Shown piece after piece: positions 3,650 through 37,562 of a stretch of 41,262 nucleotides of DNA. Below the pieces are notes generated by a model. It worked only from the letters and a program-made list of their open reading frames with translations, made no database searches and was not told the origin of the DNA. How positions within the stretch are numbered: position 1 is the first letter of the stretch; every line of letters begins with the position of its first letter. Both the position numbers and the translations under genes were made by a program. This DNA comes from a virus, in the IMG/VR virus record IMGVR_UViG_3300021197_000330, positions 1 to 41,262 of that record. One strand, written 5' to 3'.

Positions 3650-4522
3650 TTAATCATGACAAAAACAAGCATCGTCAGACTTATCAAAATCAAACAAATC
3701 TAACTGGCTTTTGCTTATCTCCAACATAGTTTTATAATCTGGTCTATCGCTTCTAAACTTAAAACCATCTTTTGACTTAGTACCTAATTGTTTCTTTTCT
3801 TGATCCATCCACCATTGTGCTTTCTCTGGGTAGTTTTTCATTATATTCATGATAGTATTCTTACCCTTCAAGAAACATAAATCACAATTACCAAGTGGTG
3901 TTTTACCATTAATACCTGGTAGCTTTAAATCAAATGAATTGTTCTCCCAAAACTTAGCTACATCTTTTACTGTTCTTTTTTCTGTATGTAGAGGAGCTTC
4001 ACTATCCCATCTTTCTTTATCCTTGGCTCTTGACAATCTAGCAACTCTGTGAGGCTCATCATATCGTAAACCTACATAGTTAACCCAATACTTATGACCT
4101 ATAGATAACATAAAATCTTTCATGACTTTTATTTTAAGTTCTGAGGTACAGTATCTAGTTACCGGGTTTGGTAAAAACTTTCTTTTAGTAATAAGTTTAT
4201 CGTAGGGTTCCCCGTTCCGTGATGCGGAGTTATGGTTTACCATTACAAACTTTTTAGACTCGTGCCACTCGACCCAATCTATCTTGACGTTCCAATTTAC
4301 TTCACAATCACGAACAAAGTCTAATGTAGCATTCATCTCTTTACCTGTATTTGAGAATACAACACGCACATCTTTAGGTAGGGTACCACCATAAAAGTCT
4401 AGGATCTGACGCAACATATAACCCGATGTTCTACCGCCAGAAAAACTTATGCAACCAGGTGTGTCAAGATCAAACCCTGATACTCTGTCTGTTCTACGTA
4501 TAAGTTCTTTAGCCTTCGTCAT
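3650..4522 (-). CDS. PAPS reductase / ATP-PP-loop family protein with Cys cluster
   Basis: The PP-loop SGGRTSG at residues 28-34 and the VVFSNTGKE strand identify the adenine-nucleotide alpha-hydrolase superfamily, in the phage branch of the phosphoadenosine phosphosulfate reductase family. R-x-C125-T-x-x-L-K is also typical of that branch. Four further Cys, C213-x2-C216 and C286-x-C288, could bind zinc or an iron-sulfur cluster, as in the thiolation-type members. Its substrate is unknown; sulfur metabolism or modification of nucleic acid are both possible. The start at 4522 is set by GGGAGGT 8 nt upstream and overlaps the preceding gene by 14 nt; the longer open frame lacks this support. A DNA methyltransferase lies two genes upstream. 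Confidence 0.85.
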   Translation of the reverse strand: MTKAKELIRRTDRVSGFDLDTPGCISFSGGRTSGYMLRQILDFYGGTLPKDVRVVFSNTGKEMNATLDFVRDCEVNWNVKIDWVEWHESKKFVMVNHNSASRNGEPYDKLITKRKFLPNPVTRYCTSELKIKVMKDFMLSIGHKYWVNYVGLRYDEPHRVARLSRAKDKERWDSEAPLHTEKRTVKDVAKFWENNSFDLKLPGINGKTPLGNCDLCFLKGKNTIMNIMKNYPEKAQWWMDQEKKQLGTKSKDGFKFRSDRPDYKTMLEISKSQLDLFDFDKSDDACFCHD

Positions 4523-4844
4523 GACCAAAAACCTCCCTTGCCATTTTCTCTCCTTCTTCTTCATAATAAGTATCAGTAAGTTGTTCGTTTTCAGACAACT
4601 GTTGTTGTATCCTAAGTCTAACAAATCTTCTAGCTGTAACTTCATCAAATAAAAACTCTGTTCCATTATCAAAATCTGCGTACATACTTTCTATTTTTTC
4701 TAATACTTCGTCATGGTCTCCAGCATCTTCTGTTGGATTACCTTTAAAATCTACTACATGTACTTTAGATAAAATATCTTTTAAGTCATTAATTACATCA
4801 TAATGACTCTTACATTTGTATTTTCCAGTAAGGTCTTTAGGCAT
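4509..4844 (-). CDS. Hypothetical acidic protein, 111 aa
   Basis: I do not recognise this protein. It is acidic and helical, with DEVLEKIESMYADFDNGTEF in the middle and a Glu-rich C-terminus (YYEEEGEKM). ATG 4844 is preferred because GGAG lies 7 nt upstream; a GTG at 4847 is adjacent. It overlaps the upstream 57-residue gene by 8 nt and the downstream PAPS-reductase-family gene by 14 nt, so all three are probably co-translated. Confidence 0.65.
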   Translation of the reverse strand: MPKDLTGKYKCKSHYDVINDLKDILSKVHVVDFKGNPTEDAGDHDEVLEKIESMYADFDNGTEFLFDEVTARRFVRLRIQQQLSENEQLTDTYYEEEGEKMAREVFGHDEG

Positions 4845-14675: not shown

Positions 14676-15403
14676 TACTCATAAGCTCTATCAAACCATT
14701 TATTTTCGTACTCTAATAATTTTTTTTCATCCATTATAAATTGTTGGTACACAAAATCTTTTGTACAAATACAAATTAAACCTTGTGTTATCTCACCATA
14801 GTACGCCTTATGAGCAATAGAATATGCTGCAATTTGATAATAATAATCCTCAATCCAATCTTCTCTTTTTAATTTATTAGATTGTTTAAAATCTATAATG
14901 GTAGGTTTATCATCATATAACCCCACTAAATCAGTCATACCAGCCCAAGCCATTTTTTTAGGATCTGGATATAAGGAAGGACAATAATCTTCGTACATTA
15001 AATTAACTTCACTGCCCCATACTTCTTTTAATTTACCTAAATTTTCTACAATCCTATGAGCCATTAATCTTGACTGATTACCTTGTGGTGTAATATTTAA
15101 ATAAGGTTTAGCTTGACAATACTTTTCTAAAACTAAGTGCATCTCAGTTCCTCGTCTGGCTGCGTCTACCGTGATTCGTGTAGCTTGTTCTTGTCCAACT
15201 CTTTTCCGCCATTGCTCTAACGACTTCATTTTTTCTTTACTTTGTGTTGCTGATAAAATAGTAGTAACAGACGGATGCTTTTTTCCATTTACATTGTAAG
15301 TTCTTACCTCTTCATCGTTTCTAGAATAACTTTTATACTTATATTTTTGTACAATACTAAAGTCAGATATTACAAAACCTTTATTTTTTCTTTTTATCTG
15401 CAT
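14639..15403 (-). CDS. RecB/Cas4-like PD-(D/E)XK exonuclease
   Basis: The active-site order fits RecB-family nucleases: GTEMH with H89, AGMTD with D158, IIDFK with D171 and K173, then Q190-x3-Y194 in YYYQIAAYS. Such enzymes act on DNA ends in recombination or host DNA breakdown. At 254 residues it matches single-domain phage versions. I use ATG 15403, just inside the end of the previous gene (23-nt overlap), because the extension to 15499 is not domain-like. The 3' ends of this gene and the SNF2 helicase overlap convergently by 37 nt. Confidence 0.85.
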   Translation of the reverse strand: MQIKRKNKGFVISDFSIVQKYKYKSYSRNDEEVRTYNVNGKKHPSVTTILSATQSKEKMKSLEQWRKRVGQEQATRITVDAARRGTEMHLVLEKYCQAKPYLNITPQGNQSRLMAHRIVENLGKLKEVWGSEVNLMYEDYCPSLYPDPKKMAWAGMTDLVGLYDDKPTIIDFKQSNKLKREDWIEDYYYQIAAYSIAHKAYYGEITQGLICICTKDFVYQQFIMDEKKLLEYENKWFDRAYEYYKKLSTSSPKV

Positions 15404-16058
15404 ACAAATTATCAAAGGTTTGTTCCCAATCCATATAGCTATCGTGTTCTTCGGCACTATGTGTATATTGACTAGGTATAAAATCTGGTGCTCCATCACC
15501 AGTTACCCACATAGCTGGAGAAGTTACTCTTACTCTATTATTAGGTAAAGCAACCATGCAACCTTTGTAAGGACCATTAGTTAAATGTAATAAATGACTT
15601 TGCTTATGTTGAGCTGGATCATCAGCTATCTCATTACCTGTATAATCAACAGTAAAATGATACTTACCTGTATAAAACTCTCCACCTACTTTACATAACC
15701 AAGGACTAGAACTAGCTCTGTTAATATTTATAATGGAATGATCTCTACTAGAACAATCCCACGGTTGAGCTAAATGAGTTGGCATAGGGTTAGGCCATTC
15801 ATCCAGTGGGTCGTCATATACTAGAGACGTAATAGGGAGTCTTGCCCACATTGCCCCACCGTGAGGATTTTCCAAACGATTGTCTTCATCTTCACACCCA
15901 GTAAAGATGACTTGGAAGGATAGACATCTGTCTGGAATAGTTGTTACAGCTACCACTAAAGCATGTAGATAGTCACCATGATAAGCTCTATGGTTTGTTG
16001 TAAACTCTCTACGTACCCATACTTTAAAGTATGGAATGTTTGATATTAAATTTCCCAT
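15381..16058 (-). CDS. Unknown conserved-looking protein, 225 aa, leaderless start
   Basis: I do not recognise a family. The protein is rich in Trp, His, Asp and Pro and looks like a compact beta-rich enzyme or binding protein; notable segments are NHRAYHGDYLHALVVAVTTI, GCEDEDNRLENPHGGAMWA and GDGAPDFIPSQYTHS. There is no signal peptide or membrane segment. The start codon is preceded by a promoter whose -10 box ends 5 nt before the ATG, so the mRNA is probably leaderless. An 18-bp palindrome lies in codons 9-14. It heads the operon that includes the RecB-like nuclease. Confidence 0.7.
   Translation of the reverse strand: MGNLISNIPYFKVWVRREFTTNHRAYHGDYLHALVVAVTTIPDRCLSFQVIFTGCEDEDNRLENPHGGAMWARLPITSLVYDDPLDEWPNPMPTHLAQPWDCSSRDHSIININRASSSPWLCKVGGEFYTGKYHFTVDYTGNEIADDPAQHKQSHLLHLTNGPYKGCMVALPNNRVRVTSPAMWVTGDGAPDFIPSQYTHSAEEHDSYMDWEQTFDNLYADKKKK
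16017..16034. repeat. 18-bp perfect palindrome inside the 225-aa gene
   Basis: CCATACTTTAAAGTATGG is a perfect 18-bp palindrome within the first codons of the gene. A half-site copy, CCATACTTT, occurs again at 16055-16063, covering the start codon and touching the -10 box. One full site and one half site about 38 nt apart suggest an autoregulatory operator. Confidence 0.8.
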
Positions 16059-17550: not shown

Positions 17551-20500
17551 TTATCCACTTTTTTGGCCTTGGTTTTGAGCAATAGCTTGTCCAGCAGAAT
17601 CCCCTGGAAACAAGAAACTGTAACTTTGTAAATTCTTTTGCACAGCACTTGGTGTGTTTTGTTGAGTTTGAGTAGGTTGTTCAGGCATTGCTTGAGATAC
17701 TTCTTCCTCTGGCTGTAATACATTTTGATCTAAATTTTGAGGTTGTGGAGCTTCTAACTCTTGATCTGCAGCAGTGTTTTGTCCTACAGCATTTAGATTT
17801 CCTTTAACAGTTTCTAATATTTTATCCTGTTCTTCTGGTTTAGCGTATTTAAAGTACAGAACTTCAGGAGATACTTTTTCTAAAACTTTATCTGGTAATT
17901 GAAAAGCATTAAATTGCGGAGTATCTACCGAACCTAATCTATCTATATAAGCATTTACATCCTTAATTGATATTTTATCAGGATCTAATTTAATTTGATC
18001 TTTGTTTTCATCATCTAAAAAATTTAAACCTATAGCTAAGTTTCTAGCTCTTTTAGGACCAAAGTATTTACCTAAAGGTTGAGTAGGATCTACTACACCA
18101 AGTATACCTTTTTGCCCGGGACCTGTAAAAGGAAACTTTACGTTTTGTGGGTCCATTAAATATTTTCTTTCTTGTTCTGTAAGTAAGCCTAATAAAGCAG
18201 AAGATTTTTTTGGGTCCGAAACAATAGCTCCGACTCTTCTGCCAAGTACCGCAGTCATTATGGAAGGAATAAGTCCTCCAGCCATATTATAAACAAGCAT
18301 ACCTGAACCTAAACCTAATACAGCTTCTGTTCCTTTTAAGCCAGCTCTTCTTTGTAAATAAGTTGAAGGATCTGTAAAACCTAAGGTAGACGCTTGTTTT
18401 AATACAGTTACTGTATCTCTAAAATTACCAAAAGCTTCTTTTCCTATTAATTCTCTTAAAGCATCTTCTTTAACTTGCTCTCCTAACCCTAAATTTTGTG
18501 CAAATTTAGTGTAATTAAAATCGCCACCAATTAAATCAAATTTAGTAAAATCAATTTTTTTAGAAGACTCTGCTATAGAAGCTGCTATTTGATCTCTTAC
18601 TAATTTATTTTCTATATAATTTGGGTTTTTAATCTGTTTTAAGGTCCCATCTTTACCAGGAACTGTTATTGTACGTTCAGATATTTTACTTAATTGTTCT
18701 GCTAAAGTTCCTTGATCTGTTTTATTAACTCTCTTAGGATCAATCATTTCATCAATAAATTTATAACCATTAATACCTTGGTCTTTTAACTTGTCTCTTG
18801 CTGCTAGTAAACTACCACTAATAATACTTTCTTTTGCTATAGGATCTAAAGCAGACATAAAAGAATCAAATATATGTCTACTTGCTAGTTTTTTTACAAA
18901 GCCCTCAGCATATTTTTTTAACTCTGGATTTTGTGTTGCATTTACTCCTATTAAATCTTTAAATTGCTTAATGGTTTCAGCGTCATTGCTTCGTAATACG
19001 TTTTTAGTAATTGCATCAAATTGTTCTTTAGCAGTAGTTGCAACTTGTGGTGAATTAACCATTCTTGGTGTAAGAAAATCATTGTTTTGTCCACCTAATC
19101 CTCTTCGAAGCCTTTCAGCTAAACCAGTTTCAAAAGTTGAGGTTAAATCAAAATAAGTTTTATTAGCATTTGTAAGTAATTTTTGGTACTCTTTCATAGT
19201 TTGTTTTGCTTTTTCAACAGAAGTAGTACCAAGACTATCCCTTACTTCTTGTCTTTGAAAAACATCATCACCTACTTTTTCAGCAGCGGCTAAATCATGA
19301 TCTAGAGCTACTTTAAACCTAGTTAATAAAGGTTGAGATTTAGAACTTTGAAAATCTTTTTGTTTTGTCATATTATTAATAGCTTCTCTAAATCTTTTTA
19401 TATCTAAAAAAGAAGTGTATTCAAATTTCATTTCATCCATTGATCCAGAAAAAGCTCTCATAGCAGTAATTAAAGCTGGATCAACATCTGTAAATACTTT
19501 TGTAGCTTTAGGGTCATTTAAAAGATCAGTAAGTCTTGCAAAATCACCTTCTCCATATATAGCACTTAATGTTTTTCTAAATTCTTCTTTAGTAGAGGTT
19601 GTAGGAACAAATCTAAAATTACCATTTGCTTCCACTGTTTTATTTAATTGTCTATATTGTAAATTTATTAAACGATCTTTTTCAAAATAATTTTTTCTTA
19701 TTTGATTAGTACCTTCTGAACCAAGCAATTCTGCAAAAGAAAAAGGAGCTAAGGATTCTGCTTCTTCTAATGTTTTACCTAAAGCACCAGCTAATTGTTT
19801 TGAAGTTAATTGCCGACCCGCACCTCCGATAAAAGGAGTAACACCTAATATTTTAAAAAAGTTTTTAAATAAAGAACCTGTTCCAGAATCTTCAGCTAAT
19901 TGTGCAATATTTAATTCCATCCCTTTTTCCTTTGCTAGTTTAGCTAATTTTAAAGTTTCTGGATTATTTACACCAAGTAATCTTCTTAAACCACTTCTAC
20001 CCATTCTTACAGCATAATAACCTGCTGTTGTTCCAGCCACTCCAAATACAGCAGAGTTAGCAAAAGCAGCACCTGCATCGACCATCATTTGAGCTGGTTG
20101 AGGTAGTTTTTTATAATCGTCTTCTGTAATTTCATTTAAATCTAATAATGAATCGCTTCCTACATTAGAAGCAAAGTTTGCTATATCGTAAGCAACAGAA
20201 CCAGCTGCTGCTCCAGTTGCACCTAAAGCAAGAGATTGAGCTTCTGTTAAAGCACCTGTTCTTAATAAACTTTGTGCTGGGTCAGAAAAACCTCCACCTC
20301 CTCCAACAGACTTTGGGGCCATTTGTTGTGTAAACTGAGCTGTTTTTCTAGTTGTGTTTTCTAATCTACTTGCAAGTCTAGGCATTAATCTTCCTACTGC
20401 TCCAAATCTTCTACCAACTACTTTACTTACAGCTCTTTGAAACTTAGAAGAACTTTTTATAAATTTGTCCAATTTAAATTTTTCTTTACCTTGAGGGTCT

Positions 20501-20862
20501 ATAAATTTTTCACCCTTTACGCCTTTTTCTAAATCTTTAGCTATGGCTTCTCTATTCATTATATACGGAGTAAAAGAACCTATAACATCTCCTACTAATT
20601 CATAGTCCGCTCTTTCATTAAACATAGTTCCTATTATAGGAACATCTATACCTTCCATAGTGCCAGCGTCTTGTGCTTCATTAGCTATTTTAGCTTTAGT
20701 TTTAGCTTGAAGATACTCTTGAGTGTTAAGAGTAGGACCTTTAATAATACCAGCCTCTATAGCTTTATCTAATACTTGTCTTTCTTTATCAGGAAGTTTG
20801 TTAATATCTATTTCGTTATTATCAAGCTGTTTTTGTATTTGTTGTATTTGTGTAGCACTCAT
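17551..20862 (-). CDS. Large internal virion/ejection protein candidate, 1103 aa
   Basis: No enzyme motif is evident. The protein is long, mostly helical, and carries several Gly/Ala-rich hydrophobic stretches (SLALGATGAAAGSVAYDIAN, AFANSAVFGVAGTTAGYYAV, LVYNMAGGLIPSIMTAVLG) able to insert in membranes. The C-terminal 70 residues are Gln/Pro-rich. Size, hydrophobic patches and position among virion genes match the internal core proteins of podoviruses, which are ejected to build a channel. The start ATG 20862 follows the previous stop by one base; the in-frame TTG 20874 is rejected. Confidence 0.6.
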   Translation of the reverse strand: MSATQIQQIQKQLDNNEIDINKLPDKERQVLDKAIEAGIIKGPTLNTQEYLQAKTKAKIANEAQDAGTMEGIDVPIIGTMFNERADYELVGDVIGSFTPYIMNREAIAKDLEKGVKGEKFIDPQGKEKFKLDKFIKSSSKFQRAVSKVVGRRFGAVGRLMPRLASRLENTTRKTAQFTQQMAPKSVGGGGGFSDPAQSLLRTGALTEAQSLALGATGAAAGSVAYDIANFASNVGSDSLLDLNEITEDDYKKLPQPAQMMVDAGAAFANSAVFGVAGTTAGYYAVRMGRSGLRRLLGVNNPETLKLAKLAKEKGMELNIAQLAEDSGTGSLFKNFFKILGVTPFIGGAGRQLTSKQLAGALGKTLEEAESLAPFSFAELLGSEGTNQIRKNYFEKDRLINLQYRQLNKTVEANGNFRFVPTTSTKEEFRKTLSAIYGEGDFARLTDLLNDPKATKVFTDVDPALITAMRAFSGSMDEMKFEYTSFLDIKRFREAINNMTKQKDFQSSKSQPLLTRFKVALDHDLAAAEKVGDDVFQRQEVRDSLGTTSVEKAKQTMKEYQKLLTNANKTYFDLTSTFETGLAERLRRGLGGQNNDFLTPRMVNSPQVATTAKEQFDAITKNVLRSNDAETIKQFKDLIGVNATQNPELKKYAEGFVKKLASRHIFDSFMSALDPIAKESIISGSLLAARDKLKDQGINGYKFIDEMIDPKRVNKTDQGTLAEQLSKISERTITVPGKDGTLKQIKNPNYIENKLVRDQIAASIAESSKKIDFTKFDLIGGDFNYTKFAQNLGLGEQVKEDALRELIGKEAFGNFRDTVTVLKQASTLGFTDPSTYLQRRAGLKGTEAVLGLGSGMLVYNMAGGLIPSIMTAVLGRRVGAIVSDPKKSSALLGLLTEQERKYLMDPQNVKFPFTGPGQKGILGVVDPTQPLGKYFGPKRARNLAIGLNFLDDENKDQIKLDPDKISIKDVNAYIDRLGSVDTPQFNAFQLPDKVLEKVSPEVLYFKYAKPEEQDKILETVKGNLNAVGQNTAADQELEAPQPQNLDQNVLQPEEEVSQAMPEQPTQTQQNTPSAVQKNLQSYSFLFPGDSAGQAIAQNQGQKSG

Positions 20863-20863
20863 T

Positions 20864-23332
20864 TTAATTACCAAAATACTTTAATAATTCTTCTTCTCTT
20901 CTTTTTAAAACTCCTGCTTGATCTTGCTCATTTATTTCTTTAAACGATCCTTCTTCTTTTTGTCTATTTTTCCAATTTTGAACAAAAGTCGTTTGCCCAA
21001 AAGAGTGAATTATGTCAGACCCTCCACCAGCTTCTTGATACGCTCTTGCAGCTACTGCAAATTTTTTATTAAGTTCTACACCTAATTCTTGGTATCTAGC
21101 AAAAATCATATTAGAACCACCTGTAATATTAAAAATATTAGTAGTTTCTGCTGCAGCATTAATATCATCTTTGGTTAGCCTTTCTTCTCCTTTATTACTG
21201 TTAGCTATAATATACTTCATTCTATTTTCTATAATAAGTAATTTAGCTATATCTCTAGCTATATCTTGTTTAGTTCTAGTCTTACTTCCATCACCTATTT
21301 TTTTCTCATATTTCTTAAATACTTTTGAGTTATAATTATTTAAATCTTTTAAATTTTGATCTAATTGAGCTTTATCAGAATTAAATTCCTTCATTACATC
21401 ATTATAACCTTTTTCATCATCCCCGTATTGTGCAGCTACTGTTTTTGAAAAAACACCTCCAAAATCGTTAGCTTGATAATCTGATTTTACACCAGGTAAA
21501 TCAGAAGAACTAAATAGGTTAAACATATCTTTTGATACAGAAGCAAACTGTTCTGAAAATTTTTGACTAAAGGCTGGTAGTCCAAGACCTCCAGTTTGTG
21601 AAGCTATCTGTAAAACTTGACCTACCATAGTTACACCTTGTGCAGAAGATTCCATTCTTTCTAAAGCTGTTCTTCTACCTTTTTGATCTTGTTTTACGTC
21701 AGGAGAGTTTATTAAAGATTTAGCTTCCTCACCTGTAGCCTCCACAAAACTACTCTTTTGAGTGTTAGGATCATATTTTTCAACTCTTTGCTTACCGTCT
21801 TTTGTTAAACCAACCCTTACAATTTCAAATCCAGTAGCTGTGTTCGCTGGTACTTTTCTATAAATTATTTTTTCTAAATTATTTGCTTTTCTAGAAGCAT
21901 CTTCTGCTGCGGCAGTAACTTCCATTTTTTTTGTTTCATAATTTATTAATGCACTTCTAAAATCTCGCATATCTGTAATTTTTGCATTTTCGAGCTGTCT
22001 TATTTGACTAATATTTAATTGAAAAGCTTCTCTTTCTAAAGCATCAAAAGAGCTATTTACATTTTCTTCATACTGCATGTAACGAACAGCTAAATCTCTG
22101 TTTTCAGCTTTTTCTTGTGCATTAATAGCTTGTAAATCATCTGCTGCTTCTACTCCAGCTTTACCCGCTACATCAAGTAATCCAGCAAAACCACCTTGTG
22201 AAGTAGTTCCTGTCATCATGTTCATAGCCCATTTAAATAAGGCAATGTTTTTTGATTGGTCATTGTCATCTCCAGTGTATTCTGTAAATGCTTTTTTGTA
22301 ATCCTCAAAACTTTTTACTTTACTTCTTTGCCCTTTAATCATTTCTTGATAACTTTTAATCGCTTCATCTGATCTACTATAAGCATTTTCCTTAATTTGA
22401 AGTTTATCAAATAAATCTCCTATGGGACCAGCATATTGAGAATAATTAAAATTTCCACTTTTAGAGCCAGTAGGGTTGGAGGTTGTAGCTAAAATAGAAG
22501 GTACTGCTTTTTTTGCTTGATCTATACCTTGTGTTGGATCACCACCATCTTCTATCATTACTTTATTTGGTTGAGCATTTTGAGCAGCTTGTGCTTGAGA
22601 CACTTGTTTATTAACATCAACTAAAGTAGTTTGACCATCATCTTTAACAACTTCTACTTTGTTATTTTTTTTGTCATTTCCTAATCGAACTAATTCCTCT
22701 CCTAATCTGTTTTGTTCTTCACCACTTAAATTGTTTAAATCTCCACCAGGAGCAATTTTTGTAAACTGATCTATAAGTTTATTTTGTGCGTCATTATAAT
22801 TAGTTTGTTTTATTAAACTCTGTGCTTCTTCAGAAAAAGCAACAGGTTGTATTCTAGATGGGTCCTCATCAGTAACCATATCTTTACCAATTTGTAAACC
22901 TGTTAAGGGTAAAGCGTATTTAGTTTGACCTAAAGAAGCTAAAGGTCTTCTTTCATTTAGTATTGCATCTTGAGCTCCTCTTCCTCCACCTCTTGCAGAA
23001 GTTAAAGTTCTTCTAGCTCCTCTTCTCATCATTCCAAAACCACCAAGACCTAATGCAGTTCCTACCGCTTTATCAAAAAGATCAGCTTCAGGGTCATCAA
23101 AAGTATCTATACCATAAGCAAATTCAGCACCACCTATACCAAGATCAGTAAGGCCACCTCCGTATCTTTGAAAACGTGTACCTTTTGTTCCCTCAATTAA
23201 TTCAGTTCCTCTTGAAGGTTGTCTAGGAGGTTGTTTACCATAATACTTATTATAAAGTTTTCCAATTCCTTTTGCTATTGGCTTTCTAGCTCCATAAATA
23301 GCTCGTGCAGCCGTTGGTAAAAACTGAAGCAT
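20864..23332 (-). CDS. Internal virion/ejection protein candidate, 822 aa
   Basis: The N-terminal 120 residues are basic and Gly-rich with hydrophobic patches (AVGTALGLGGFGMM). The remaining protein is helical and polar, with long coiled-coil-like segments around residues 400-500 and again near the end. I recognise no catalytic motif. Together with the 302- and 1103-residue neighbours it forms a block like the internal protein cassette of T7-like phages. It starts in a TAATG junction with the Gly-rich protein gene. Confidence 0.6.
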   Translation of the reverse strand: MLQFLPTAARAIYGARKPIAKGIGKLYNKYYGKQPPRQPSRGTELIEGTKGTRFQRYGGGLTDLGIGGAEFAYGIDTFDDPEADLFDKAVGTALGLGGFGMMRRGARRTLTSARGGGRGAQDAILNERRPLASLGQTKYALPLTGLQIGKDMVTDEDPSRIQPVAFSEEAQSLIKQTNYNDAQNKLIDQFTKIAPGGDLNNLSGEEQNRLGEELVRLGNDKKNNKVEVVKDDGQTTLVDVNKQVSQAQAAQNAQPNKVMIEDGGDPTQGIDQAKKAVPSILATTSNPTGSKSGNFNYSQYAGPIGDLFDKLQIKENAYSRSDEAIKSYQEMIKGQRSKVKSFEDYKKAFTEYTGDDNDQSKNIALFKWAMNMMTGTTSQGGFAGLLDVAGKAGVEAADDLQAINAQEKAENRDLAVRYMQYEENVNSSFDALEREAFQLNISQIRQLENAKITDMRDFRSALINYETKKMEVTAAAEDASRKANNLEKIIYRKVPANTATGFEIVRVGLTKDGKQRVEKYDPNTQKSSFVEATGEEAKSLINSPDVKQDQKGRRTALERMESSAQGVTMVGQVLQIASQTGGLGLPAFSQKFSEQFASVSKDMFNLFSSSDLPGVKSDYQANDFGGVFSKTVAAQYGDDEKGYNDVMKEFNSDKAQLDQNLKDLNNYNSKVFKKYEKKIGDGSKTRTKQDIARDIAKLLIIENRMKYIIANSNKGEERLTKDDINAAAETTNIFNITGGSNMIFARYQELGVELNKKFAVAARAYQEAGGGSDIIHSFGQTTFVQNWKNRQKEEGSFKEINEQDQAGVLKRREEELLKYFGN

Positions 23333-30747: not shown

Positions 30748-32511
30748 CTAAAAAGTATTGTTATATTTAAATGGGACGTCAGCCCATGCCATGTAGATAT
30801 AATCAGCTCCATTAGCATTAATTTTACCATCAGTATTTCTCATTTTCACCCCATTGCTAACAAAGTCTAAATTCACGTTAGTAGGGTCAAATTCTGCATC
30901 AGTAGTATCCCACATTAAAATTTTTTCTCCCATTGCGTTAAAAGTTTCTCTTGCAGAATCTATTACTACCCAATTATCACTACCACTTGTTTTTTTCACT
31001 GCTAAGAGTCTGGGTCTAAAACCTGTATAGATAAATGCACCATCAGCATTACCAGTCCCAGTATAAGAACCGAAGCGTTGCATACCTTCAACATTATGCC
31101 ACGCATAACAAACATAATCAGAGCCACTACTATTTACATGACTAATAGTTCCTATACCTATGGTAGAAGTAGTAGGTTCAGTATCATTAAATCTTGTGCT
31201 ACCTGAATAAGCACCATCATTTGCATCTATTTCAAGATATTTTGTAGCACCTAGTGCACTATGATAGGTTGCCCAAGCCATTCCTGCTCCACCATCTCTA
31301 TTTTTTATTGTAAAAAAATCTGGTTTAGCTGATAGTCCATGTCCTATAGTTGCATTACTTCCTGTTCCTGTATAGGTTATAATCGAAAAGCCACTTTTTG
31401 TGTTTGCTTGTACTGTAGAAGTTATTGAACCATTACTATTACTAGCTGTTGTTCCACCATTAGCTTTCCAACACCAAGCAACATAAGTTCTACCACTATC
31501 ATTTGGTCCACTACCACTTGTTCCAAAAACAAAACCATCATCGTTAAATGCAGTATATATAGGATTAGTATTTCCCATTGAACTATCTGTTTCTTCAGCA
31601 CTTGTAGCATCAGAAAATAAATGTTTACTAATGCCTCTACTAGTATCAGTTAAAAAATTTCTTTGACTACTATTTCTCATTTTAGCCCATACTAAATCTG
31701 GTTTAAAACCTAATCCAGTTATTGTTTGAGCACTTGTTGAACTACCTGTATAAGTAACTATTCCAAATTGTTTAGTAGGATTATCTGTTGCACCATCATC
31801 TCCTGCAGGATCTATGTCAGAGGAAACCGACATATTCGCGGAACATAAAGCCAAGAACGAAGCTGGCGGCGAATACTTGAAGGCTCCGTAACCGTTTCCA
31901 TCTGCATTTCCTGCTGCTGTAACATTTCCATTAAAAGTATCGTCCTGACCTGCGTTAATATGCATATAAGAAGACCCATTATAACTTGCTACCCAAACAG
32001 ACATTTCTGTTCCAGAAGTAAATGTATCTATAGGATTATTACCATTAGCTGGATCTCCACTGCCTGCCCAAGTATTATTTTTGCCGAACCACCATTTACC
32101 AGCATCTATATCTACAGCTATTTGTAATATATCTGTACTTGTCCAACTTACACCACCTGAAGCAGCACTTGCACCAAACTTAACTATTTGACCACTTGTT
32201 CCTACCACTTCTGATTTATTATTTGTATCACTAGAAGCATATTGATAGTTGCTTATGTTTTGAGTAATTGAGATAGAAGATGTTTTACAAATACCTAGTG
32301 TGGGCCATCCTCCAGCTGGATTATTTTCTGCATATACTTCAATATACCACTTACCACTGGTCATACTATGAGTTGAAGTCATAGTAGAAGTACCACCTGT
32401 ATTGCCTCTAAATCTTGTATTACCTTTATCAAGAATAAAGGCTGAATAACTTAAAGATGGGTTTACATTAGCTAAACGATTCCATGTTGCAAAATTTGCG
32501 TTTCCTGCCAT
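30748..32511 (-). CDS. Tail fibre protein with SPRY-like domain and three repeated modules
   Basis: Residues 45-190 form a SPRY-like domain (SGKWYIEVYAENNPAGGWP, later KWWFGKNNTWAGSGDP). After that, three modules of about 90 residues repeat the pattern YTGxGxxxxIxxGLxxKPDF and an SARG or TSRG-like element, as in marine phage fibres. Such domains bind glycans or protein ligands, so this is a candidate receptor-binding protein. It begins with NFATWNRLANVNPS, which in the relatives I remember directly continues the LamG domain of the neighbouring gene. The GGAGG ribosome site is the 3' end of that gene. Confidence 0.8.
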   Translation of the reverse strand: MAGNANFATWNRLANVNPSLSYSAFILDKGNTRFRGNTGGTSTMTSTHSMTSGKWYIEVYAENNPAGGWPTLGICKTSSISITQNISNYQYASSDTNNKSEVVGTSGQIVKFGASAASGGVSWTSTDILQIAVDIDAGKWWFGKNNTWAGSGDPANGNNPIDTFTSGTEMSVWVASYNGSSYMHINAGQDDTFNGNVTAAGNADGNGYGAFKYSPPASFLALCSANMSVSSDIDPAGDDGATDNPTKQFGIVTYTGSSTSAQTITGLGFKPDLVWAKMRNSSQRNFLTDTSRGISKHLFSDATSAEETDSSMGNTNPIYTAFNDDGFVFGTSGSGPNDSGRTYVAWCWKANGGTTASNSNGSITSTVQANTKSGFSIITYTGTGSNATIGHGLSAKPDFFTIKNRDGGAGMAWATYHSALGATKYLEIDANDGAYSGSTRFNDTEPTTSTIGIGTISHVNSSGSDYVCYAWHNVEGMQRFGSYTGTGNADGAFIYTGFRPRLLAVKKTSGSDNWVVIDSARETFNAMGEKILMWDTTDAEFDPTNVNLDFVSNGVKMRNTDGKINANGADYIYMAWADVPFKYNNTF

Positions 32512-32512
32512 A

Positions 32513-33307
32513 TTATCCTCCTGTACCTATGGTCGGTGAGTCAAGAACTTGACGATCTACAGGCATACTAGTTACTGAATAATCATTATTGTTCCCTGAA
32601 CTATCATCTCCAAGTGCAGAGGCATTTTGAAATTTAAGGTATACTCCATTTGTACCAAAGGTTAAACCACTTGGGTCTTTTGGAATCCAAACACCATTTT
32701 TACTTTCACCTAAATCTGTTGGTGCTTGAGCTGTACCATCTATTAATATAAATTCTGCCATATATCCTGCAAAATCTGATGAACTTGAACCATATTTCAT
32801 TATTCCTATTTGATGTTCTGTAGTATTGTTTACTTCTGTTTCATAATTTTGTGCAGCTGAAGATGAGGCATCAGTATCAGTTACTTGTGTACCATTAAAA
32901 TAAAATTTCATTCTATTTCCTGCTGTTGCTTGTGTCATATCAACTGCTAACATATAATGTCCCCAACCAGAAGTATCTCTATACATAGGTGTCCAAATAT
33001 ATTCTGTACCACCACTTGCTCCAATTTGATATTGGTCAGTATTTCTCATTCTTATATTCCAAACAGTAGAACCACCATTATTAGCATCAGCACCAAATGG
33101 CACCATATGATTTCCTGAATGTGTTATTACAGTTCTTTTCCACCAAAAACTTACAGTAAAAGTTCTTCTATTACTTGCACTACTAGGAGTTCTTGTCATA
33201 TAATCTCCTGCATCTTCCTCAAATTTTACTGAATGATTTATCTGATGGTCATAAAATGCTCCACCACCTGCACCAGGATTTTGAAAAAATTCACCTTGTA
33301 CTGGCAT
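32513..33307 (-). CDS. Tail fibre protein with LamG/concanavalin-like domain
   Basis: The protein is one LamG-type jelly roll: SVKFEEDAGDYMTRTP, FTVSFWWKRT, WGHYMLAVDMTQA, MKFYFNGTQV and GYMAEFILIDG. It ends with the common DDSSGNNNDY and VLDSPT signature. LamG domains bind sugars, so host recognition is likely. In homologues I recall, the DSPT signature runs on into NFATLNP and a SPRY domain, whereas here the protein ends with TIGTGG and the SPRY part is a separate gene, two bases away. A GGAG ribosome site precedes ATG 33307. Confidence 0.8.
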   Translation of the reverse strand: MPVQGEFFQNPGAGGGAFYDHQINHSVKFEEDAGDYMTRTPSSASNRRTFTVSFWWKRTVITHSGNHMVPFGADANNGGSTVWNIRMRNTDQYQIGASGGTEYIWTPMYRDTSGWGHYMLAVDMTQATAGNRMKFYFNGTQVTDTDASSSAAQNYETEVNNTTEHQIGIMKYGSSSSDFAGYMAEFILIDGTAQAPTDLGESKNGVWIPKDPSGLTFGTNGVYLKFQNASALGDDSSGNNNDYSVTSMPVDRQVLDSPTIGTGG

Positions 33308-34275: not shown

Positions 34276-35382
34276 TTATGCCGCTGTTGTTATCTCGGTC
34301 CACGTTGTTTGTGCACCTGTATTTATTTCTGACCACGCTATTATTATTACACTTCCTACGTTGCTCGTCAATACTACACCTGTTACGTCATCTACTAAAC
34401 AAGTGCCTGTTATTTCTGTTGGACTGCCAACAGCACTTGTTAAAGAAACACCAGTTACATCATATCCTGAAATAGGTGTAATAGAACCTACTGCTGATGT
34501 TGTTGCTACACCAGTTACAGAAGTAGTTCCTGTTATAGATAAAGTTATACTTCCAATTGCACTTGTCGCTGATACTCCTGTTACAGGTACATTTAATTTA
34601 GGAGCAATAACAACGTCATTTGTTCTTGCTGTTCCTTCTACTCCTGTTGGAACAACAGTTACATCACCTTCAAAATCAACTGTACCAGCACTACTTAATA
34701 AAGGTAATCCTGTTTGAGCAATTTCTACACCTTGTGTTGTTGTTACATCCTCAGTATTAGATTGTAAGCCCATACCTGAAGCATTAATAATTACAGTATG
34801 TGACACACTTGCTACTGCTGTTCCTATTGCAGAGGTTGCACTTACTCCTGTTGGTATGACAGAATATACACCATCCCAAACTCTATTACCCCAAGTTCCT
34901 CGACCCCAACCTTCTCCTATTTCTGCATCAATAGTTACAGAACCTATAGCAGTTGTTGAAGAAACACCAGTTACAGCAAAACCTATACTATTTTGAGCTC
35001 CCCAACTACCTTCATCCCAAGATAATAAACCCCATGTAGTAGCTGCTTCGGTATTAGCTGTGCCACCCATACCAGAATGATTAGTACAGTAGTAATAAAG
35101 AACTGGAGCAGAAGATGCGACTTGTATAGTAGTTTTAGCACCAGCATTACCAGGGGTGCCACTTGTAGTTACGCCAGTAGTGTACTCACTTCCACTATTA
35201 TGAGTACCATCTGAAGTAGTAGAAAACCTAAGAGGATGTCCACTATTAGAGCTATCAGCTTGGTCAAATACATAAGTACCCCCTTCAGCTAATACAACGG
35301 TAGCTTGTTGAGCACCGTCTAAAAAATACTTATTTCCAGAACCTGGATTGGATACCGTAACTGTAATTGTTCTAGTAGTCAC
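34276..35382 (-). CDS. Virion protein with cupredoxin-like domain and VTGVSxTSAVGS repeats
   Basis: Residues 1-108 look like a cupredoxin domain: FLDGAQQATVVLAEGGTYVF, H49 in SGHPLRF, then YYYC99TNH102SGM105GG. The C-x2-H-x2-M spacing equals that of the type 1 copper site of amicyanin, and His49 would be the fourth ligand. From about residue 137, seven degenerate repeats of VTGVSATSAIGS (16 to 40 residues apart) form the second part, with W-G-x-G-T-W-G elements between. Copper binding is inferred from the ligand set. The start is GTG 35382, chosen from GGAG 9 nt upstream; no ATG is near. Confidence 0.75.
   Translation of the reverse strand: MTTRTITVTVSNPGSGNKYFLDGAQQATVVLAEGGTYVFDQADSSNSGHPLRFSTTSDGTHNSGSEYTTGVTTSGTPGNAGAKTTIQVASSAPVLYYYCTNHSGMGGTANTEAATTWGLLSWDEGSWGAQNSIGFAVTGVSSTTAIGSVTIDAEIGEGWGRGTWGNRVWDGVYSVIPTGVSATSAIGTAVASVSHTVIINASGMGLQSNTEDVTTTQGVEIAQTGLPLLSSAGTVDFEGDVTVVPTGVEGTARTNDVVIAPKLNVPVTGVSATSAIGSITLSITGTTSVTGVATTSAVGSITPISGYDVTGVSLTSAVGSPTEITGTCLVDDVTGVVLTSNVGSVIIIAWSEINTGAQTTWTEITTAA
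34326..34974 (-). repeat. Seven VTGVSxTSAxGS protein repeats
   Basis: The repeats read VTGVSSTTAIGS, PTGVSATSAIGT, PTGVEGTARTND, VTGVSATSAIGS, VTGVATTSAVGS, VTGVSLTSAVGS and VTGVVLTSNVGS. A related unit, LTSVSASSAVGG, closes the separate 125-residue protein at 36496-36873. Confidence 0.8.
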
Positions 35383-35401: not shown

Positions 35402-35833
35402 TTAAGCTATTCTTAAAATAGCATTTGATGCGTCATCAGTTGGAAACTGTATTGTAAATGTACCTGAAGTAGCTGTTTTATCTCCACCAAAATCTAAAAC
35501 TGCAACTGCTGGATCACCAGAAGCTGTGTCGTTATAAATTAAAGCACCTCTTGCTGTAAGTGAAACACCTACAAAAGATAAATCAGCAAAATCCACAACA
35601 GCAGTATCTGTACTCAAAGCTGGAGTTACATTTACTAATGCTTTACCACCAGCTGGATAACCAGATGATGAAACTTGATTGTCTGTTGTGAAAGAAGTTG
35701 TTGATTTACCAAGAGTTGCACTTGATGTATACATACTTAATTTAAAACTATTTCCACCGTTTGTAAAATTATGTACGCCTTTTAAAACATCTGTTTTAAA
35801 TACGTTACATACCACACTTGTTGTTATTGCCAT
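35402..35833 (-). CDS. Small beta-rich virion protein, 143 aa
   Basis: The protein has a short helix-rich start (VVCNVFKTDVLKGVHNF) followed by beta strands and Gly/Thr-rich loops (STDTAVVDFADLSFVGVSLT, TSGTFTIQFPTDDASNAILR). It closely resembles small marine phage structural proteins near the adaptor genes. I infer a tail or decoration role from composition and place only. Confidence 0.65.
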   Translation of the reverse strand: MAITTSVVCNVFKTDVLKGVHNFTNGGNSFKLSMYTSSATLGKSTTSFTTDNQVSSSGYPAGGKALVNVTPALSTDTAVVDFADLSFVGVSLTARGALIYNDTASGDPAVAVLDFGGDKTATSGTFTIQFPTDDASNAILRIA

Positions 35834-35845
35834 ATTATTTTTCTC

Positions 35846-36499
35846 CTAATTTTGTGGTGATGGTGATTGCACAGGAACCCTCATCACACCATTATCATAT
35901 TCAGAACGCCTACGTCTTCCACTTTGTGCTAACATAAACGCCTCCGTACTTTCATTATACTTGTCTTGATACAGTTTGTACATATCCAATGGGCCTTTTA
36001 AATAACTAAAACATTCAACTAGCACTCCGTATAATAATAAATTTTCTTGATGTTTAGATAAAAAAGTATCTGTTGTTGCGTTAAAATGATCTGGGTCTTT
36101 AATATAATTTAATTGTATCTCATATGCTTGATCTGGCACTGGTGCAAAAACAATATTTTTATCATCCCAATTAGCAAAGTATTTTGGTAGACCAGTTGCA
36201 TCGGTAGGATTATATTCAGCCATAAAAGAAGTATCTCTTTTTTCTAAAAAATCTCTAGTACTACTACTTATTACTTGAACAGAACGTATAACTATACAAT
36301 CATCTGGAACATTTAAATATCTTTGTGTTCCTGTTACAGCAGTAACGTATTTACGTATGTCATCGTAATCAACTTTACCAGCAATGTCTAATTCAGTATT
36401 TCTAATAAACTCATCCAATATAGTATCTGTAAGAACATTAGAATCTACTTCTGTGTATGATCGAACTTGTGTTAAAAAACTTGTATATGTTATACTCAT
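35846..36499 (-). CDS. Head-tail adaptor protein (SU10-adaptor-like)
   Basis: The helical N-terminus (TDTILDEFIRNTELDIAGKV) and the beta part with RYLNVPDDCIVIRSVQV, then LPKYFANWDDKNIVFAPVPD and YEIQLNYIKDPDHF, match the phage adaptor family seen between portal and tail in podoviruses. A helix (LLYGVLVECFSYLKGP) that packs against the portal and a basic C-terminal tail close it. At 217 residues it has the expected length. It overlaps the preceding gene by ATGA. Confidence 0.75.
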   Translation of the reverse strand: MSITYTSFLTQVRSYTEVDSNVLTDTILDEFIRNTELDIAGKVDYDDIRKYVTAVTGTQRYLNVPDDCIVIRSVQVISSSTRDFLEKRDTSFMAEYNPTDATGLPKYFANWDDKNIVFAPVPDQAYEIQLNYIKDPDHFNATTDTFLSKHQENLLLYGVLVECFSYLKGPLDMYKLYQDKYNESTEAFMLAQSGRRRRSEYDNGVMRVPVQSPSPQN

Positions 36500-36873
36500 G
36501 ATATTACTATGGTTACTCCCCCTACCGCAGAAGATGCTGAAACTGATGTAAGCTTATGTCCTAAAATATCATTGCTTTGTTCTACTGTCATACTTGCTCC
36601 ACCTGTTATACCACTATCGCCAACCTCAGCAAAAAACCCATTGCTTATATATAGGAGAAATTCTTGATTAGGGTTTTTATGTTGAGGTCTAGCGTTTGCT
36701 AAAGCAATACCATCTGCTTTTATATGTTTTCTTTTTATCTGAGGTTGTTTAGCCTCAAACTCAGAACGATGAACAAAAGAGCCATTCCATTCTTTAACCA
36801 TTTCTTGATAAGGAAAAGCCATACCCGACCTATCTGAAATTGCTTTTGCATATTTACCTCTTGCATACGCCAT
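36496..36873 (-). CDS. Virion protein, 125 aa, between two adaptor genes
   Basis: The first 60 residues (MAYARGKYAKAISDRSGMAF, then EFEAKQPQIKRKHIKADG) match small basic proteins that accompany the adaptors in marine podoviruses. The C-terminal part ends with LTSVSASSAVGGVTIVIS, a single copy of the repeat found seven times in the cupredoxin-domain protein. This suggests that both carry the same small structural module. It starts in a TAATG junction. Confidence 0.65.
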   Translation of the reverse strand: MAYARGKYAKAISDRSGMAFPYQEMVKEWNGSFVHRSEFEAKQPQIKRKHIKADGIALANARPQHKNPNQEFLLYISNGFFAEVGDSGITGGASMTVEQSNDILGHKLTSVSASSAVGGVTIVIS

Positions 36874-37562
36874 TATGCACCTTGTGGGTAATAGTTTTGT
36901 GGAGATATATAAACAGAAGTTCTTTGACCATCTTCTGTTAAAGCTCTATTTAACTCATCTTCATACAACATCTTATTTTGTTGCACTAATTGAGGAGCTC
37001 TTTTTAAACTCAAGTAGTAGGCAAGACCAGCCACCATACATGGAATGAATCTAAACACCACGTCAGCTTGATTAGTATAGTTGCCTGCATCTTCAATCCT
37101 TTTTAAATAATAATATTTTAAATATGTATACGTACTAGCATCTGGTGCTTGGTATAAATTTATTTTTGGCACAGTTTGTCTATCAACATAATATTGACTA
37201 GGTTGACCAGTAGAGCCTTTATTAGGTAAAGCAGCATACTCACTTCTACTTATTTTTGTTAATGATACATCGTTTGTAGAAGATGTTGTACTAGTGGTTG
37301 TACTAACGTAAGCTTCTAAAATATCGTTAGCATTAGTTGGAGCATCGTAAGTAGCCGTACCTGCTGTAAGCTGTTGTTCTTTTAATTCTACTTTCCAAAG
37401 ATGTATACCTCTGTTACCCCATTCTGAAAAAAGTATATTTAAACTTCTTCTAGCTGATTTTAAATCATAACCAGAGTTAGTTCTTACACCACATCTTTCG
37501 TAAGATTCTTCAATAATCTCATCTATGTCTAGGTTAAAGGAAGTTGAACCAGAAGTAGCCAT
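36873..37562 (-). CDS. Second adaptor/tail-tube-type protein, 229 aa
   Basis: The N-terminal helices (IDEIIEESYERCGVRTNSGY, DLKSARRSLNILFSEWGNRG) are the classic start of tail tubular protein A or adaptor proteins, followed by W-KVELKEQQLTAG-ATYDAP. The C-terminal half has YLKYYYLKRIED and a helix pair with MVAGLAYYLSLKRAP. In the family it forms the ring below the portal. Two adaptor-type genes in the same block suggest a two-layer connector. GGAG lies 11 nt before the ATG. Confidence 0.75.
   Translation of the reverse strand: MATSGSTSFNLDIDEIIEESYERCGVRTNSGYDLKSARRSLNILFSEWGNRGIHLWKVELKEQQLTAGTATYDAPTNANDILEAYVSTTTSTTSSTNDVSLTKISRSEYAALPNKGSTGQPSQYYVDRQTVPKINLYQAPDASTYTYLKYYYLKRIEDAGNYTNQADVVFRFIPCMVAGLAYYLSLKRAPQLVQQNKMLYEDELNRALTEDGQRTSVYISPQNYYPQGA

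Follow-up and report, generated by a model that had tools for sequence, protein, structure and literature searches.

A cupredoxin-like domain with a predicted type 1 copper site on a pelagiphage tail-region protein

Introduction

Amicyanin (PDB 1aac) and plastocyanin, of the PF00127 family, are soluble periplasmic electron carriers; amicyanin is the periplasmic electron acceptor of methylamine dehydrogenase. Cupredoxins are encoded by marine phages as well; the plastocyanin of cyanophages is of host type and serves the infected cell as an electron carrier, and it is not built into a virion protein. Its gene, petE, is a cyanophage auxiliary metabolic gene (PMC5083919). On virions themselves, iron-binding HxH motifs have been described in phage tail fibres (PMC11705849). 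In the open PMC literature, we found no paper joining cupredoxins with phage tail fibres or virions.

Here we analysed a 41,262-nucleotide stretch of viral DNA (IMG/VR record IMGVR_UViG_3300021197_000330, positions 1 to 41,262), which as a whole is called the window. A preliminary description had proposed that a protein in its fibre region carries a cupredoxin-like domain with a full set of type 1 copper ligands. We find that the domain is a divergent cupredoxin variant, uncatalogued and shuffled among marine phage tails, which is a wider finding than that description stated.

Results

Judged from its genes, the window virus belongs to the HTVC023P-type pelagiphages, which infect the ocean's commonest bacterium. 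Its DNA polymerase is 69% identical to that of HTVC023P, and its SU10-type adaptor protein (35846-36499, minus strand; Pfam PF24175, 2.8e-21) is 63% identical to HTVC023P gp56. The paper describing this lineage makes no mention of copper or cupredoxins (PMC9599517). The protein of interest is encoded on the minus strand at 34276-35382 and has 368 aa, with a GTG start and an AAAGGAG ribosome-binding site about 9 nt 5' of it. Residues 10-113 match PHROGs families of tail fibre and baseplate wedge proteins. The cupredoxin-like domain covers residues ~1-113 (35044-35382, minus strand), followed by the repeat region at residues 114-368 (34279-35043, minus strand), whose degenerate units of ~22 residues follow the form V-T-G-V-x2-T-S-A-I/V-G-S.

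The preliminary description had listed His49, Cys99, His102 and Met105 in order, with amicyanin spacing (C-x2-H-x2-M), on a protein otherwise made of repeats, and each of these points agrees with what we found. His49 (35236-35238, minus strand), a predicted copper ligand that is conserved jointly with the CxxH motif, aligns with amicyanin His53, and the C99-TN-H102-SG-M105 loop (35068-35088, minus strand) aligns with C92-x2-H95-x2-M98 of amicyanin in PDB 1aac. The columns of this loop are among the most conserved in the domain alignment (70% non-redundancy). The pattern H-x35-60-C-x2-H-x2-4-M arose in 1 of 20,000 shuffles of the 368-aa protein and occurs in one of the 128 window ORFs of at least 60 aa, namely the one studied here. 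Beyond the ligands, the domain holds His61, and the rest of the protein adds Cys328 and His195. His61 (35200-35202), part of the motif DGTHNSGSEY, is near-invariant across the subfamily of phage and cellular domains (56/59 genome copies) and is missing from the gp9/10-type copies of the domain. A disulfide use of Cys99 inside the domain was rejected, as it is the sole cysteine there.

We modelled the domain with AlphaFold2 from an alignment of 69 relatives, both phage and cellular. The model reached a pLDDT of 95.8 and a pTM of 0.89; the single sequence had given a useless model with a pLDDT of only 40, which the alignment fixed. When the model was compared with the PDB using Foldseek, the best matches were nearly all cupredoxins, including all seven matches with E <0.001 (probability 1.00, TM 0.50-0.60); the first 15 matches had a probability of 1.00, TM 0.47-0.60 and a best E of 3.8e-4. 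Three-domain nitrite reductase, rusticyanin, multicopper oxidases and 2ux6, a pseudoazurin carrying an engineered amicyanin loop, stand at the top, with small laccases lower. Because the TM-scores are moderate, the domain is, on the model, a divergent member of the cupredoxins. The predicted structure is a Greek-key beta-sandwich matching solved cupredoxins, in which DSSP places H49 just ahead of strand 51-54, C99 as the last residue of strand 95-99, and H102 and M105 in the loop ahead of the last strand, 107-112, a cupredoxin-like arrangement. His, Cys, His and an axial Met (Gln in some copies), the makings of a type 1 copper site, are found in canonical order and strand context. From the fold and the register, we infer that the four ligand side chains converge on one site.

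At the sequence level, the domain has no significant match in Pfam or NCBIfam, and the window protein has no match to PF00127 Copper-bind, whose cut-off is 21.2 bits. Among the relatives, Copper-bind is the commonest weak Pfam match (19/69, best E 0.0012), plastocyanin is the commonest such match in NCBIfam (11/69), and some weakly match a plant At5g54830-like domain. A Bacteroidetes homologue (L321) passes the Copper-bind cut-off (32.8 vs 21.2 bits) and aligns with the window domain family. In hhalign comparisons, the domain family aligned with amicyanin and four cellular Copper-bind proteins at E 6.3e-7, with 4/4 ligands in register. Without the bridging L321, the score was 27.7, against 9.7 +/- 1.8 (maximum 17.7) for 200 column shuffles; with the ligand loop masked, it was 14.8, inside the shuffle range (9.5 +/- 2.1, maximum 17.5). 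The profile signal to known cupredoxins therefore resides mostly in the ligand loop, with weak sequence similarity elsewhere. PDB sequence searches started from the window protein and from its close relatives gave no cupredoxin, and antibody chains, their sole matches, were rejected as a spurious YYC match. In a deeper profile search of the PDB, plastocyanins appear with weak E-values.

To describe ligand conservation, we used 497 domain copies from 315 loci, 400 of which are complete at the four ligand columns. All four ligands (H-C-H-M) are kept in 381 of these 400. Sixteen of the 19 exceptions have Met replaced by Gln as their sole change, an axial exchange known from stellacyanin-type copper sites, and the remaining three (FSQM, DATM and RDVY) have lost three or all four ligands. 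At 60% non-redundancy, 26 copies have both H49 and CxxH, 4 have H49 only, none has CxxH only and 10 have neither (Fisher 1.2e-6, with phylogeny ignored and one of the four rows with H but without CxxH cut by a contig end). Across this alignment, the ligands behave as one unit, their loss being rare and, bar Met-to-Gln swaps, all-or-none. PSS2 CSPG_00077 keeps the fold signature (YRFDQS, LYYY, MGG) and has lost H49, C99 and H102; the baseplate-wedge copies of S-RIM12-like phages have likewise lost the ligands and kept the fold pattern. In cyanophage PSS2, a stand-alone 112-aa gene (L308 2492-2830) amounts to the entire cupredoxin-like domain minus H49, C99 and H102.

A first viral scan had shown conserved ligands in 84/84 copies, a biased figure because the search patterns included part of the ligand loop. 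Instead, we used loci drawn by their neighbouring adaptor gene, independently of the domain. The domain is present in 33 of the 85 informative loci, with CxxHxxM kept in 33/33; of the other loci, 41 lack module and repeats alike and 11 have the repeats alone. Complete copies at adaptor-anchored loci have the full H-C-H-M set in 46 of 46 cases.

Searching 50,697 phage records, we found the domain in 358 (E<=1e-3), mostly Synechococcus and Prochlorococcus phages but also pelagiphages and Methylophilales phages. HTVC028P and EXVC032P are among the pelagiphage carriers. The domain is seen in tail fibres and in baseplate wedge proteins, is C-terminal in a T4 gp9/10-like baseplate protein and, in a SAR11 single-cell genome, lies within a T7-type tail fibre. 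The T4 gp9/10-like connectors between baseplate and tail fibre of cyanomyoviruses (L138 1613-2833 and L141-L220, in many IMG/VR contigs) carry it at the C-terminus with a full ligand set. The earlier label of a fibre-region protein fits the window but is too narrow for the module, which other phages also have on proteins of the baseplate and the head-tail adaptor. The S-SCSM1 protein SSCSM1_231 (S-SCSM1_231) has the full ligand set and is labelled 'virion protein' in its record; since the S-SCSM1 virion proteome was determined by mass spectrometry (PMC9602691), this label most likely reflects detection by that method. Among the S-CREM2 proteins detected by mass spectrometry, the domain was not found in those tested. 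In SAR86, SAR92 and marine group II archaea, the domain lies at or near the C-terminus of proteins with lipoprotein-like N-termini, which are probable surface lipoproteins, and in some of these cellular copies it is adjoined by cadherin-like or collagen repeats.

The genes around the locus are informative about the history of the module. Just upstream in the operon is a phrog_644 protein (35402-35833, minus strand) that is syntenic in HTVC023P and HTVC027P, and a second SU10-type adaptor-like protein lies at 36873-37562 (minus strand; PF24175, 2.6e-10). The whole HTVC023P genome holds no copy of the cupredoxin module. In HTVC027P, the syntenic orthologue gp68 matches the repeats only (residues 113-330, 28.6% identity, E 1.5e-10); it starts where the module would end and has no cupredoxin module. 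In phage 023Pt_psg01 (L315 7989-9086), an in-frame fusion places the module at the N-terminus of a head-tail adaptor-like protein, a homologue of the window protein at 36873-37562. Within the window protein, dN/dS is 0.05-0.24 for the domain and 0.5-0.77 for the repeats, where misalignment may inflate the value. The synteny comparisons show a shuffled module that has been gained, lost and moved among virion proteins. We disfavour the view that the domain serves fibre proteins as their fixed anchor to the virion, as it is N-terminal, internal or C-terminal on unrelated virion proteins.

Several other features of the window were recorded. The small protein at 36496-36873 (minus strand) ends in LTSVSASSAVGGVTIVIS, which resembles one copy of the cupredoxin-protein repeat, and its HTVC023P and HTVC027P homologues match the first 64 residues only. 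A DUF7483 protein (30748-32511, minus strand) and a laminin-G-like lectin protein (32513-33307, minus strand) adjoin the cupredoxin protein; against a close relative (L001), they are 37-39% identical while flanking genes are 84-99% identical, and this receptor-binding-like cassette therefore seems to have been exchanged. Elsewhere, the phage encodes a phosphoadenosine phosphosulfate reductase (3650-4672, minus strand; PHROG match, 3.9e-49). The protein at 15381-16058 (minus strand) strongly matches a PHROG labelled ferredoxin (9.7e-29) and has no Pfam match; the label may be wrong. Two large proteins, at 17551-20874 (1107 aa) and 20864-23332 (822 aa), both on the minus strand, have no PHROG or Pfam match.

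Discussion

We propose that a cupredoxin module whose type 1 copper ligands are all in place was grafted onto a pelagiphage tail-region virion protein, where it probably binds copper and may serve as a metal-dependent display module. Both checks suggested in the preliminary description favour a cupredoxin copper site: the predicted fold is a cupredoxin, and relatives keep the four ligands in the full set as well as in the domain-independent sample. Purifying selection maintains the module, whereas the repeats that follow it are diversifying. Sequence and model together strongly predict copper binding by the domain, presumably at the site formed by His49, Cys99, His102 and the axial Met105. Maturation outside the cytoplasm is the rule for type 1 copper proteins, so that a phage protein made in the cytosol would have to take up its copper later, which counts against the copper reading; so do the weak similarity outside the ligand loop, the moderate TM-scores and the near-invariant fifth residue His61. 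A cupredoxin pocket is preformed, and the assembled virion could therefore pick up copper from seawater after lysis. On the particle, we favour a metal-dependent role in the adhesion or stability of exposed tail parts, and the module may act there in display rather than as a soluble electron carrier, because it is found on differing exposed virion parts and on probable cellular surface lipoproteins beside adhesion-type or collagen repeats. The preliminary description had raised metal sensing or binding at the host surface, or fibre stabilisation, as possible roles.

The main rival, which we hold to be unlikely but worth weighing, is that the cupredoxin fold is a structural or anchoring beta-sandwich only, comparable with Ig-like decoration domains, and that its metal residues are inherited and unused on the virion. 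Copies that keep the fold pattern minus the ligands, such as those of PSS2 and the S-RIM12-like phages, speak for it, and virion-attachment domains typically show a conserved N-terminus ahead of a tail that evolves fast. However, most copies keep the four ligands over large divergence, the changes are concerted or consist of the axial Met-to-Gln swap, and the position of the module varies among its carriers (N-terminal, internal or C-terminal).

We consider it improbable that the copper site has a redox role, transferring electrons or dismutating reactive oxygen at the host surface. Redox activity is inherent in the chemistry of a type 1 site, and the weak matches to the plant At5g54830-like domain, of unclear meaning, could be read in the same direction, but the protein has no partner oxidase or reductase domain, and in cells the domain is found not beside redox enzymes but on proteins that are probably at the surface and have adhesion-type or collagen repeats. 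Slightly less probable still is that the site binds another metal, either Zn, which His/Cys sites are able to take in vitro, or Fe, which the Ferrojan horse hypothesis places at HxH sites of tail fibres. The 368-aa protein has no HxH motif, and His-Cys-His-Met in a cupredoxin fold, together with the exchange of Met and Gln at the axial position, is the pattern of type 1 copper. A chance motif in a low-complexity phage protein with no significant Pfam match is refuted by the rarity of the pattern in shuffles, by the hundreds of homologues that keep the ligand set and by the predicted cupredoxin fold.

Hundreds of marine phages carry the domain on their tail proteins, which points to a capacity for copper binding in many marine virus particles. 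If the sites do bind the metal, metal content would be a property of some of the sea's most abundant virus particles, and this would bear on adsorption, on virion stability and on the organic copper ligand pool. The unnamed tail and baseplate proteins of the 358 phage records can be treated as one family whose defined site is open to testing, and a concrete folded domain is at hand for the debated notion that phage tails bear metal. More speculatively, and with considerable doubt, the blue-copper domains on the tails of many marine phages, pelagiphages and cyanomyoviruses among them, might be copper-loaded from seawater after lysis, and the phages might use the copper state for docking on, or recognition by, copper-handling proteins of the host surface. 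This scenario, an equally doubtful copper parallel to the Ferrojan horse, would turn free virions into an oceanic copper-binding pool.

Compared with known systems, the window domain shares the cupredoxin fold and the His...Cys-x2-His-x2-Met order with the amicyanin/plastocyanin family, and the spacing of its ligand loop is the same as that of amicyanin. In contrast to these soluble periplasmic carriers, it sits on a phage virion protein, has a longer G/T-rich stretch from the first His to the Cys and lacks a PF00127 match; with amicyanin as acceptor of methylamine dehydrogenase, it has only the loop spacing in common. Rusticyanin (1rcy) and the cupredoxin domain of three-domain NirK (2dv6), the best structural matches of the model, differ from it in function and loop lengths, at ~15% sequence identity. 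Cyanophage petE is likewise a cupredoxin encoded by a marine phage. The same domain is found in unnamed tail proteins of cyanophages and pelagiphages (PHROGs 27200, 693, 30742 and 708; S-TIM5 H6WFV3; P-SSM2 Q58M60), which are annotated as tail fibre, baseplate wedge, virion structural or hypothetical proteins, with no mention of a copper site in the records and papers covered; S-TIM5 H6WFV3 is 59% identical to the window domain, with a model TM of 0.97. In iron-binding HxH tail fibres (T4 gp37; Ferrojan horse hypothesis; R22Y, PMC11705849), iron is held between histidine pairs, whereas the window protein carries a predicted, folded copper-protein domain; the theme that we propose they have in common is metal on exposed tail proteins.
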